Below are positions 48,011-50,849 of a stretch of DNA of 64,000 nt, piece by piece; the first letter of the stretch is position 1; each line of letters begins with the position of its first letter. The stretch spans positions 62,001 to 126,000 of the forward strand of contig NZ_JACJHY010000006.1 of NCBI RefSeq assembly GCF_014138625.1. The letters are read 5' to 3'. A program made the position numbers and the translations under genes. The notes beneath the pieces were generated by a model. The model made no database searches, was not told the DNA's origin, and saw only the letters and a program-made list of their open reading frames with translations. The DNA comes from Aminobacter ciceronei (lineage in GTDB: Bacteria; Pseudomonadota; Alphaproteobacteria; Rhizobiales; Rhizobiaceae).

Positions 48011-48394
48011 TTAGGCGGCGGCGCGCATCAGCGGCGGGCTGTTCGAATTCGCCGGCGAAGCAATGGTCCTGGCCGTCTCGACGCTATGGGTCAGGCGGAA
48101 CCACGTGCCGCCGTCCGGCTGCGCTTCGAGGTCGAAAGTCACGACCGTTTCGGGTTCGCTCACCGTTGCGTCGTTCCAGGCGTAGCGAACGCGCGAGAAC
48201 GGCAGAGCCTCGATGATGCGGTAGGCCGGGCCGGTCGTATCAGCGGTGACCTTGTCGGCCGCCGGCACATCGAGCCAGGTTGCGACGAACTCCGGTACCG
48301 TCAGCGCGCGCCAGACCTTTTCAGGCGTCGCTTCCAGTTCGCATTCGACGACGATGGTGTCGTCTGTCTCTTCCTGCCTTTGGGCGTCCGTCAT
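48011..48394 (-). CDS. SRPBCC/AHSA1-family protein
   Basis: A 127-residue START-like protein: [21 protein letters not shown] is the classic AHSA1/SRPBCC opening and [12 protein letters not shown] the closing strand. Proteins coupled to ArsR regulators in this way bind hydrophobic ligands or act with the regulator. Its ATG overlaps the ArsR stop by four bases (ATGA), so the two are translationally coupled and likely functionally paired. Confidence 0.88.
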
Positions 48395-48705
48395 TGGTCC
48401 ATCTCCTTGAGCAGTGTCTTCAGCCTCTCGACACGTTCCGGCCAGAAGCTGCGATAGCGGGTGAGCCAGTCGAAAAGCGGCCGCAGCCCGTCGGGGTTGA
48501 CGCTGTAGTTCACATGCCGGCCGGCACGCGCTTCCTTGATCAAGCCTGCGCCGCGCAGCACGGCGATGTGCTGTGAGATCGCTGGCTGTGAAATCTCCAG
48601 CCCCTGGCGTAGTTCCGTCGCGTTTTTCTCGCCTGCCGTCAGTCGGTCCAGTACGGCACGGCGGGTGGGATCGGACAGGGCGCGGAATATCTCGGATTCG
48701 TTCAT
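48391..48705 (-). CDS. ArsR-family transcriptional regulator
   Basis: A 104-residue winged-helix regulator of the non-metal ArsR type: FRALSDPTRRAVLDRL, LEISQPAISQHIAVLRGAGLI (recognition helix) and GRHVNYSVNPDGLRPLFDWL. It lacks the ELCVCDL metal motif, so it should sense something other than arsenite. A palindrome lies seven bases upstream of its ATG, fitting autorepression. First gene of a two-gene operon with SRPBCC. Confidence 0.92.
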   Translation of the reverse strand: MNESEIFRALSDPTRRAVLDRLTAGEKNATELRQGLEISQPAISQHIAVLRGAGLIKEARAGRHVNYSVNPDGLRPLFDWLTRYRSFWPERVERLKTLLKEMDQ

Positions 48706-48712
48706 GGAAATG

Positions 48713-48732
48713 AGATAAGCATGGACTTATCT
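48713..48732. promoter_or_regulatory. ArsR operator palindrome
   Basis: AGATAAG at 48713-48719 and CTTATCT at 48726-48732 form a perfect 7-6-7 inverted repeat seven bases upstream of the ArsR start. Such ATAA/TTAT palindromes are typical ArsR-family operators. Confidence 0.7.
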
Positions 48733-48798
48733 GTTGCGCAAGTGCCACCCAATGATGCCTGCGAAACTGGCACAACAGGCTTCGGTCCAGCGCGGGGG

Positions 48799-48827
48799 TT
48801 GGCTAAGCAAAAATGCTTCGATATAAG
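48799..48827 (+). promoter_or_regulatory. Strong sigma70-type promoter for the exporter leader
   Basis: TTGGCT at 48799-48804 and TATAAG at 48822-48827 are separated by exactly 17 bases. The spacer holds the inverted repeat AAGCA-AAAA-TGCTT, a possible operator. The expected start near 48834 gives a 5' leader of about 210 bases before the exporter gene. Confidence 0.6.
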
Positions 48828-48861
48828 CAAATTCTTCGCGGCCACTAACAGGGAGGTCTGA

Positions 48862-48909
48862 ATGCCAGAATATGACATGTCCTCCCGGGGTTCACGCCGA
48901 GGTCGTTGA
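48862..48909 (+). CDS. 15-codon Arg-rich leader peptide upstream of the ABC exporter
   Basis: The frame MPEYDMSSRGSRRGR has a strong ribosome site, GGGAGG at 48851-48856, five bases before its ATG. It ends at TGA 48907-48909. Its last codons form the 5' arm of a hairpin and its stop lies at the loop. The C terminus contains R-R-G-R, an Arg-X-Arg motif of the sort that stalls ribosomes with macrolides in ErmDL-like leaders. The exporter gene itself has no clear ribosome site. Translation-dependent control of the exporter is inference. Confidence 0.5.
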   Translation: MPEYDMSSRGSRRGR

Positions 48910-48920
48910 CCTCGCGAACC
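48889..48920 (+). promoter_or_regulatory. Nested hairpin in the exporter leader RNA
   Basis: CGAGGTC (48898-48904) pairs with GACCTCG (48908-48914) around GTT; outer arms GGTTC (48889-48893) and GAACC (48916-48920) extend it. The leader ORF ends at the loop, so ribosome movement would open the structure. No T run follows directly, so action on translation or RNA stability is more likely than termination. From 48921 to 49046 I see no further gene. Confidence 0.55.
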
Positions 48921-49046
48921 ACCTTCGGCGTCCCTTTTATCTGACGCTGCCGTACCGCGACTTCCTGATTCAGCAAGAATTATTCGTCGCGCCTTTGAAC
49001 ATCTTTTTTCCAGGGGTGGCGTCGGGTTTCGGCGCCTCAACGCATC

Positions 49047-50849
49047 ATGGCTCGTTTTCGTATCGACCTGCGCGGCGGCGCTTTCCGCAGCGTTCTGGGT
49101 TTCACTTTCAGGCACTGGCAACGCCAACCGGCCCGGCTCGTCGTTATCTCGGCGGCCGTGCTCATTTCGACGATGGCCGACGTGTTGACGCCGCTCTATT
49201 CGGGCCGGCTGATCGACGCCGTCGCCAGTAGCGCGGCGACTGACGAGGTGGCATGGAATGCGGCGCTCGCCGCGTTCTTCACCTTGCTGGCACTTGCCAC
49301 TGGCTCGCTGGTGTTCCGCCACATCGCCTTTGCCGGCATCATCGAGTTGACGCTCAAGATGATGTCCGACATCGCCCAGGATGCGTTCCACCGCGTCCAG
49401 CGCTTCTCGACCGACTGGCACGCCAACAGCTTCGCCGGCTCGACGGTGCGCAAGGTGACGCGCGGCATGTGGGCGCTCGACCTGCTCAACGACACGCTGC
49501 TGGTGGCGCTGCTGCCGTCCTTCGTGATGCTTGTCGGCTCGACCATCCTGCTGGGATGGCACTGGCCGATGATGGGCCTGATCATTGCCGTGGGCTCGCT
49601 GATCTTCATTACCCAGACGGTGGTGATGTCGCTCGGTTTCGTCGCCCCGGCGGCCAGCCTTGCCAACAGCTGGGACACGCGTCTCGGCGGCTCCTTGGCC
49701 GACGCCGTCAGCTGCAATTCGGTGGTCAAGGCCTTTGGCGCCGAGGAGCGTGAGGAAGGGCGTCTCGCCAAGGTGATCGCCAAGTGGCGTCACCGCACGG
49801 GGCGCACCTGGATGCGCGGAACGATCAACGGTACGTCGCAGAACATCACGCTGGTTCTGCTGCGCGCCGCGATCATCGGCTTCGCCCTTTTCCTGTGGTC
49901 AAGCGGGCAGGCCAGCGCAGGCGATATCGCCTTCGTGCTGACCTCGTTCTTCCTGCTCCAAGGCTATCTGCGCGATGTCGGCATGCACATCCGCAACCTG
50001 CAGCGTTCGGTCAATGACATGGAGGAACTCGTCGACATCCAGGGCCAGCCTCTCGGTGTGGCCGATCGGCCTGGCGCCAAGCCGATCCAGATCGGCGACG
50101 GCGGCATCGAGTTCAAGCATGTGACGTTCCACTACGGCACGCATGCGAACCCGCTCTACCGGGACTTCTCGGTGTCGATCAAACCAGGCGAGCGCGTCGG
50201 TCTCGTCGGCCATTCCGGTTCGGGCAAGACGACCTTCGTCAAGCTGATCCAGCGGCTGTACGATGTCGGCGGCGGCAAGATCACCATCGACGGGCAGGAC
50301 ATCGCCAAGGCGACACAGTCGTCGCTGCGTTCGCAGATCGCGATCGTGCAGCAGGAGCCGATCCTGTTCCACCGCTCGCTGGCCGAGAACATCGCCTACA
50401 GCAGGCCGGGCGCGACGCAGGCCGATATCGAGCGCGCGGCAAAGCTCGCCAGCGCGCACGAATTCATCCAGCGTCTGCCCAAGGGTTATGGCACGCTGGT
50501 CGGTGAGCGTGGCGTCAAGCTGTCGGGCGGCGAGCGCCAGCGCGTGGCGATTGCCCGTGCCTTCCTGGCCGATGCGCCGATCCTGATTCTCGACGAGGCG
50601 ACATCCAGCCTCGATTCGGAATCGGAGGTGCTGATCCAGCAGGCGATGGAGCGCCTGATGGTCGGGCGCACGACGCTGATCATCGCGCACCGGTTGTCGA
50701 CGGTGAGGGCGCTCGATCGGCTGCTCGTCTTCGATCGCGGAGAGATCGTCGAGGAGGGCCGGCACGAGGCGCTGGTACGCCGCGAAGGCGGCATCTACCG
50801 CCGCCTGTTCGAACGCCAGGCGCTGGAGCTCACCAAAGGGCTCGTCTAG
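49047..50849 (+). CDS. ABC exporter (fused permease and ATPase)
   Basis: A 600-residue half-transporter with six spans in residues about 25-320 and an ATPase domain from about 340. Walker A is GHSGSGKTT at 388-396, the signature LSGGERQ at 492-498 and Walker B ILILDE at 512-517, with the H-loop IIAHRLST. It resembles MsbA/Sav1866-type exporters of lipids or drugs; substrate unknown. The ATG lacks a clear Shine-Dalgarno sequence, unlike the leader ORF 185 bases upstream. A perfect hairpin follows the stop. Confidence 0.93.
   Translation: MARFRIDLRGGAFRSVLGFTFRHWQRQPARLVVISAAVLISTMADVLTPLYSGRLIDAVASSAATDEVAWNAALAAFFTLLALATGSLVFRHIAFAGIIELTLKMMSDIAQDAFHRVQRFSTDWHANSFAGSTVRKVTRGMWALDLLNDTLLVALLPSFVMLVGSTILLGWHWPMMGLIIAVGSLIFITQTVVMSLGFVAPAASLANSWDTRLGGSLADAVSCNSVVKAFGAEEREEGRLAKVIAKWRHRTGRTWMRGTINGTSQNITLVLLRAAIIGFALFLWSSGQASAGDIAFVLTSFFLLQGYLRDVGMHIRNLQRSVNDMEELVDIQGQPLGVADRPGAKPIQIGDGGIEFKHVTFHYGTHANPLYRDFSVSIKPGERVGLVGHSGSGKTTFVKLIQRLYDVGGGKITIDGQDIAKATQSSLRSQIAIVQQEPILFHRSLAENIAYSRPGATQADIERAAKLASAHEFIQRLPKGYGTLVGERGVKLSGGERQRVAIARAFLADAPILILDEATSSLDSESEVLIQQAMERLMVGRTTLIIAHRLSTVRALDRLLVFDRGEIVEEGRHEALVRREGGIYRRLFERQALELTKGLV

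Follow-up and report, generated by a model that had tools for sequence, protein, structure and literature searches.

A conserved leader reading frame and a hairpin-bridged ribosome site upstream of a putative ExsA-type exporter gene: a possible translation-sensing attenuator

Known leaders and the Aminobacter locus

Attenuators built on an upstream open reading frame (uORF) and ribosome sites bridged by a hairpin are both already known; their combination, its target and its phylogenetic depth, as met upstream of an exsA-type exporter gene, appear to be new. The nearest experimentally studied leader that we found is that of duf1127_1 in Sinorhizobium meliloti. There, transcription is attenuated, presumably by Rho, and this requires that the uORF be translated; C-rich codons of the uORF can be masked either by its ribosome binding site (RBS) or by a ribosome that has stalled, and the attenuation is lifted by tetracycline (PMC12218461). 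The two leaders come from the same order and share a uORF driven by a Shine-Dalgarno sequence (SD), which in duf1127_1 starts about 250 nt before the gene, with the transcription start 279 nt upstream; like the C-rich codons there, a CCUCCC in codons 7-9 of the present uORF can pair with the uORF SD (PMC12218461). They differ in the gene, which encodes a DUF1127 protein, and in the longer uORF (29 aa) of duf1127_1, for which the accessible text mentions neither a hairpin-bridged RBS nor a UAG-GUC stop hairpin; and whereas attenuation of duf1127_1 is presumably Rho-dependent, Rho and induction are proposed for exsA by analogy only (PMC12218461).

Other relatives are more remote. In E. coli toiL-topAI, too, a uORF in a structured leader is proposed to report translation stress, with Rho involved; the proposal there, however, is that toiL pairs with the RBS of topAI and that stalling sets this RBS free, whereas no conserved pairing between uORF and RBS was found in exsA leaders (PMC12121999). 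Translation of a uORF governs Rho termination before the next gene in E. coli tnaC (PMC12218461) and likewise in Bordetella bp2923 (CruR) (PMC9426467), which is what we propose for exsA. These two sense tryptophan and copper, respectively, via the nascent peptide (PMC12218461, PMC9426467). The exsA uORFs do not have comparably conserved residues. ErmDL-type macrolide leaders also carry a short SD-driven uORF, and the uORF of our locus resembles them in this and in the Arg near its end; unlike there, the +x+ motif is not conserved in exsA leaders and a switch of the RBS is unsupported. Stalling at +x+ is mentioned for macrolide leaders in PMC12121999. As to the ribosome site, hairpins shorten the distance from SD to AUG in the T4 genes 38 and 25 from 22 to 5 and from 27 to 11 nt, respectively, and here from 30 to 11 nt; the T4 examples are phage genes, while exsA is a bacterial transporter gene with this device across an order and with a uORF in addition (PMC3014915). 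In the accessible literature on split or accommodated ribosome sites, this T4 review and a paper on the E. coli thrS standby site bear on the exsA site. No exsA leader appeared in the titles and abstract openings searched, most subscription papers lying outside the search, and the main text of an S. meliloti small-proteome paper makes no mention of exsA, nor does that of PMC12218461.

The DNA analysed here, called the window, is a stretch of 64,000 nucleotides from Aminobacter ciceronei. Its relevant features, all on the + strand, are the following.

48799..48827, +, promoter-like element, TTGGCT (48799-48804), 17 nt, TATAAG (48822-48827); from the sequence
48851..48856, +, SD of the uORF, GGGAGG, with 5-base spacing to the ATG at 48862; from the sequence
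48862..48909, +, uORF of 15 codons, MPEYDMSSRGSRRGR-stop, stop codon at 48907-48909; from sequence and comparison
48881..48886, +, P0, CCUCCC within codons 7-9 of the uORF, the complement of the SD of the same frame; from folding
48889..48920, +, hairpin P1 around the uORF stop codon; from folding (z -3.13) and swap test
48910..49011, +, C-rich, G-poor intercistronic stretch, by its composition a possible Rho loading region
48926..48949, +, hairpin P2; from folding (z -2.54)
48957..48990, +, hairpin P3, almost unchanging within Aminobacter; from folding (z -2.89) and alignment
49012..49016, +, distant SD-like AGGGG of the exporter; from sequence and comparison
49018..49036, +, hairpin P4, 7 bp with a 5-nt loop, between SD and start codon; from comparison and covariance model
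49047..50849, +, putative ExsA-type ABC exporter, 600 aa, ATG at 49047; from protein matches and orthologue synteny

The leader matches no Rfam family: there was no match at the gathering cut-off across the window and none at E up to 5 in 48700-49200, and in five relatives the three sub-threshold matches all lay away from the leader. The least variable non-coding stretch of the Aminobacter leader is 48956-48993, which contains P3; its AT-rich core, AAGAATTATTCG, is by eye absent from the other aligned genera.

The exporter matches 187 NCBIfam models, the best 25 of which, with MsbA on top, all score under their curated cut-offs, and among the 60 of 585 matches to solved structures that were listed, the proteins are ABC exporters of the ABCB/MsbA kind. 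An orthologue in Sinorhizobium medicae is 76.7% identical. It is preceded by exoF, an O-antigen ligase and an acyltransferase and lies between galE (exoB position) and a gene for a DMT transporter followed by queC (exsB). This is the position of exsA in the exo region. By synteny, the window exporter is thus an ExsA orthologue. ExsA is described as an ABC transporter important for transport of the high-molecular-weight form of the exopolysaccharide succinoglycan (PMC1403797). An ExsA-type exporter, as synteny suggests it to be, is no known drug pump, and the label "efflux system" used in the first-pass annotation is unproven. In Aminobacter the neighbours are different: an ArsR-type regulator upstream on the opposite strand and, judged by eye, a glutamyl-tRNA-synthetase-like gene downstream. 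Because these differ from those in S. medicae, the leader travels with the exporter, not with the neighbourhood. The minus strand of the window (48011-48705) holds the ArsR/SmtB-type regulator (48391-48705) and then, by eye, a probable SRPBCC/AHSA1-like ORF, both divergent from the promoter region of the exporter. The exporter is not universal. At the limits set, it was matched in 76 of the 297 genomes searched in the family and in 87 of 397 in the order; in the class the figure was 10 of 337, and in the sample of the phylum 25 of 299.

The leader reading frame in related genomes

The first-pass annotation had described a promoter, an SD of GGGAGG five bases from its start codon and a 15-codon ORF ending in R-R-G-R-stop. 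All of these are to be read in the sequence. The promoter-like element agrees with the consensus in 9 of 12 positions by manual count; a strict promoter scan does not list it, because its rule requires T as the last base of the -10 element. Transcription would be expected to start near 48834, and in 103 of the 197 uORF-bearing loci a relaxed promoter element ends 33-42 nt 5' of the uORF ATG.

For comparison, at least 80 loci from one listing were combined with further genome loci to 244 sequences, of which 208 were unique, three Paraburkholderia loci included. In 192 of these 208, mostly Hyphomicrobiales, an ATG uORF whose SD matches at least 5/6 lies 100-320 nt before the exporter; the same rule finds 35 in 670 shuffled upstream regions and 9 in 267 coding windows. 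A perfect 6/6 SD occurs in 159 of 208 loci but in just one of the 670 shuffles and one of the 267 coding windows. Both controls were taken from 67 non-redundant loci, chosen out of the 197 that have a uORF when GTG and TTG starts are admitted besides ATG (197/208, SD at least 5/6); with uORFs of up to 26 aa and less than 55% similarity, this set is by its making selected for having a uORF. The leader ORF is thus real, with its position and SD conserved in relatives, and a regulatory uORF is its natural reading. The exsA uORF of the L244 strain reads MQAFSSPYGADPRS.

Eleven of the 208 loci have no uORF by the rule. Four of them (L021, L153, L161, L239) are second exporter copies within their genomes, and in four others (L201, L203, L204, L215) the start calls are doubtful; the rest are L053, L145 and L213. 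The second copies L021 and L153, whose start calls are doubtful too, lack a uORF as well as a match to the split-RBS model described below. In L053, a Mesorhizobium locus, the uORF region within the 330 nt upstream of the exporter is replaced and the split RBS is retained (29.8 bits); such a natural deletion could separate the functions of the two.

The peptide fares differently from the frame. As many as 67 representatives of less than 55% similarity are needed to cover the 197 uORFs (those of up to 26 aa), and the peptide as a whole is not conserved. The ratio pN/pS is 0.35-0.70 in six groups, two of which have just three distinct sequences, and 0.98-2.33 in three; constraint on the peptide is accordingly weak and uneven. 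Might the peptide act in trans? The six groups with pN/pS below 1 would fit, and peTrpL of S. meliloti is reportedly a precedent for a trans-acting leader peptide. The scant sequence conservation between groups speaks against it, and so does a motif in mid-uORF. CUCCC, the complement of the SD, occurs in 22 of the 67 uORFs, as compared with 6.8 (maximum 13) upon dinucleotide shuffling and 8.1 (maximum 14) upon codon shuffling; of 52 occurrences of UCCC, 34 are at codons 7-9, and all three frames are used, which points to RNA rather than peptide. A peptide working in trans is therefore a highly improbable explanation. In the window the motif is the CCUCCC of P0, which is unchanging in Aminobacter; P0 itself folds no better than shuffles (z -0.76). 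Over the leaders, the uORF SD is paired in 61 of 66, slightly above the 85% obtained with shuffled uORF bodies.

The Arg-rich end of the uORF had suggested stalling at Arg-X-Arg in the manner of ErmDL: a macrolide-bound ribosome would stop there, the RNA would refold and the exporter would be made. Apart from the R-R-G-R end in the window, R-G-R is present in many Mesorhizobium uORFs, a K/R-x-K/R motif is found in 77 of all 197 uORFs, and Arg is more frequent in the last six residues (79/402) than in earlier positions (32/674) of the 67 uORFs. Nucleotide shuffling yields 60 Arg in the last six codons (maximum 80) against the 79 found, a modest excess, and K/R-x-K/R occurs in 18 of the 67 non-redundant uORFs as against 11.5 expected (maximum 20 in 200 shuffles). 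R-R-G-R ends just two of ten Aminobacter uORFs, those of the window and of L015, and six of nine distinct Aminobacter uORFs have Asn at codon 12. Stalling at Arg-X-Arg is therefore not borne out by the comparison. Since, in addition, the exporter is of ExsA type by synteny and its ribosome site does not respond to a ribosome block in silico (see below), we regard a drug sensor of this kind as very unlikely.

The stop codon, its hairpin and the RNA behind it

The uORFs have a preferred way to end. UAG is the stop in 120 of 197 uORFs; among the exporters it closes 26 of 194, and among long stop-to-stop frames on either strand of the same loci 71 of 324. In the non-redundant set, most UAG stops (20 of 36) are directly followed by GUC, the frequency of which is 1.7% in the next 60 nt; of the 34 TAGGTC strings on the read strand of the 67 loci (387.5 kb), 20 are uORF stops. 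The window is a divergent member, because its stop reads UGA-CCU. Outside the order we looked at ten distant exporters, nine of them still within the class and one from another part of the phylum. Seven have a candidate uORF, and in L252, L253, L254 and L255, all from other alphaproteobacterial orders, its stop is UAG-GUC; the stop context may therefore predate the order. In none of these ten is the split RBS more than weak, if it is there at all (best 18.7 bits, E 0.019, in L251). The UAG-GUC context may be a functional RNA signal in itself.

The stop codon lies in a hairpin. In the window P1 has 7 bp, 48898-48904 with 48908-48914, extended by GGTTC/GAACC, and none of 200 shuffles folded equally well. 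The first-pass annotation had seen this hairpin and had placed the stop codon in its loop; the 3-base loop contains just the first base of the stop, the other two being part of the 3' arm. Over the 67 leaders, the end of the uORF and the RNA behind the stop pair better within a leader than when exchanged between leaders (swap test, z -5.1, 0 of 5000 permutations). It is the 49 more distant leaders that carry this signal (z -5.6). Among the 18 closer ones, to which the window belongs, P1 falls short of significance (z -0.6), and the post-stop strand there pairs further downstream instead (z -3.5). The same strand is also matched to the middle region of its own leader (z -3.7). Pair counts on a plain alignment of 48 of the 67 leaders (A3) were weak, the covariation score being equalled by 7 of 500 shuffles and surpassed in register -1, so that P1 rests on the swap test. 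Within Aminobacter, one A-U pair is replaced by G-C in two sequences, a compensatory change, and the adjoining pair, in the window's register, is a G-G mismatch in four of ten; one or two pairs of that register are disrupted in L103, L022, L104 and L014. Of what the earlier annotation had hoped to find in an alignment of relatives, namely conserved leader residues and a hairpin kept by covariation, the hairpin at the stop stood up in the swap test, whereas neither the Arg-rich end nor the +x+ motif proved to be conserved.

Behind the stop, C prevails over G. This is so in 65 of the 67 leaders for the stretch up to the SD; the fractions of C and G are 0.367 and 0.254 there, 0.300 and 0.300 upstream of the uORF, and 0.331 and 0.316 in the coding region. 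The window has 35 C and 18 G in 103 nt. This bias is a composition of the Rho type; of course, C-rich leaders can have other causes.

In a classical attenuator, as in trpL, translation of the uORF would decide between an intrinsic terminator and an antiterminator, and the two pairing partners of the post-stop strand would be in line with that. In many leaders of Mesorhizobium, a hairpin followed by a run of U stands about 20 nt ahead of the exporter SD, and by a stricter rule the window has a terminator-like hairpin that ends 21 nt past the uORF stop with the tail UCCCUUUU. Such sites are not enriched, however: they were found in 13 of 67 leaders (window included) and in 55 of 335 shuffles, the Mesorhizobium leaders being a possible exception to this null result. 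A looser rule, applied to every second P4-positive locus with a uORF (68 in number), counted 40 of 68 leaders, the window being negative, against 88 of 204 shuffles, and a dedicated terminator scan detected none in the window leader. We thus consider a trpL-like attenuator improbable.

Could the ribosome on the uORF refold the ribosome site of the exporter, as the first-pass annotation had it? The minimum free energy structure of the window pairs GACGCUGCC (48943-48951) with GGUGGCGUC (49015-49023), by which the 3' arm of P2 meets the exporter SD and the 5' arm of P4. A conserved sequestration of the exporter SD was considered and rejected, as 135 leaders behaved about like their shuffled versions (mean z -0.26) and the swap test gave z +0.8. 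Other pairings tried in the swap test gave nothing either: the uORF SD tested against the end of the uORF scored z +0.4, and the region of the stop against SD and 5' arm z -0.1; with the 3' arm of P4, the stop region reached z -1.9. When a ribosome was placed in silico on the start or the stop of the uORF, the P4 hairpin and the accessibility of the exporter SD shifted by 0.021 or less on average in an equilibrium model (41 of the 67 leaders, those with a strict P4). The idea that stalling refolds the RBS is therefore unsupported, since there is neither a conserved sequestration of the SD nor an effect of blocking. As terminators are not enriched and the exporter RBS is not predicted to refold, Rho is left as a likelier effector.

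We therefore tentatively prefer, as the most plausible reading of the analysis, a translation-sensing and probably Rho-dependent uORF attenuator that feeds a hairpin-bridged exsA RBS. Translation of the uORF, the action of Rho, the direction of control and the signal are what we infer here. The strong SD would drive translation of the short uORF, which would in this way report translation capacity. With efficient initiation and termination, the C-rich RNA would be exposed and Rho would halt many transcripts before they reach the exporter. With faltering initiation or elongation, hairpins or a parked ribosome would cover the C-rich RNA and transcription would read through. The exporter would then be translated from its split site, the hairpin drawing the distant SD to a working distance from the AUG. 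Some findings weigh against this reading: the weak and uneven constraint on the peptide, the pairing of the uORF SD little above shuffles, the terminator-like site in the window, the low probability of P4 in the full window leader (see below) and the eleven loci that lack a uORF. If the reading is true, an exopolysaccharide-associated exporter may be tied to the performance of the ribosome by a regulatory leader not described before and distributed from Aminobacter to Sinorhizobium megaplasmids. This is a compact element that comes in many natural variants and lends itself to reporter tests.

The split ribosome site of the exporter

The ATG of the exporter had been annotated as lacking a visible ribosome site. 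This is a misreading, which arose because the SD is distant and is joined to the AUG by a covarying hairpin: AGGGG (49012-49016) ends 30 nt before the ATG, and 11 nt are left once the 7-bp hairpin at 49018-49036 is discounted. The pattern is order-wide and consists of GGAG, GAGG or GGGA, a hairpin (often CCGG...CCGG), about 8-10 nt and the ATG. By a strict rule, 137 of 192 distinct sites have it, as compared with 6.7 in shuffled sequences and 0-9 when the reference frame is moved elsewhere in the leader or into the gene. This count omits nine duplicates and seven loci in which the start is doubtful or the exporter is a second copy (L021, L153, L201, L203, L204, L205, L215). The stem has 5 pairs in 11 of the 137 strict sites, 6 in 26, 7 in 60, 8 in 34 and 9-10 in 6; the usual lengths account for 120.

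A plain alignment of P4 gave no structure with RNAalifold, the distance to the AUG being variable; we therefore needed a covariance model whose structure we specified ourselves. This model, R1, was built from 60 of the 67 leaders (alignment A2), 7 with poor or doubtful sites being omitted. It matched 62 of 79 sources (52 of the 60 seeds and 10 of 19 others) with one match each, left 17 of the 79 unmatched and, at E up to 0.5, gave no further hit in 540 kb. All but one of the 62 matches end at the exporter start (59 by script, L244 and L245 by coordinates), and the remaining one, L205, ends at an in-frame ATG 18 nt upstream of the called start. The window, itself among the 60 seeds, scores 30.8 bits; across its own genome the exporter site is the top match (E 0.00135), followed by one with E 1.76. 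All six P4 pairs of the model change on both sides, in 37 cells as against 19.1 in shuffles, none of 500 shuffles being as high. In an alignment that was fitted to the structure, 69.4% of the cells pair; sliding the register by -1 yields a similar 70.7%, because the spacing varies. In a fold of the full window leader, P4 has a probability of 0.03, so that a further opening step would be needed.

Should the bridged site be all that matters? P4, together with the stem-loops upstream, could be the essential device, the uORF merely loading ribosomes, keeping the leader open or stabilising the RNA without sensing anything. The conservation and covariation of P4, its persistence in L053 without a uORF, the strong divergence of the uORF peptide and the lack of an effect of a uORF ribosome on P4 in equilibrium folding would all suit this explanation; it gives no account, however, of the hairpin at the stop, of the UAG-GUC context or of the C-rich region behind the uORF. 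We hold it to be rather unlikely. The translation-sensing attenuator might, more generally, define a new order-wide class of cis-regulatory RNA. In such a class a uORF that ends inside a hairpin, preferably with UAG-GUC, would sense translation and control an ExsA-type envelope exporter, the start codon of which would be served only via a hairpin-bridged SD that is itself regulated. This wider claim we offer as a possibility open to considerable doubt. If it holds, a bacterial gene family has SD-hairpin-AUG as its ancestral and general form. To our knowledge, hairpin-bridged initiation is known from a few phage genes only, and the split RBS is a natural, phylogenetically deep test case of this mode of initiation.

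Finally, the exporters of three Paraburkholderia loci (L096, L100, L101) and of L260 are 71-74% identical to that of the window and are accompanied by a uORF. By eye, the three Paraburkholderia loci have an SD-hairpin-AUG-like element, which fails the strict rule, and L100 is unmatched by R1. Together with L260, they suggest, as far as sequences can tell, that exporter and leader have been transferred between classes.
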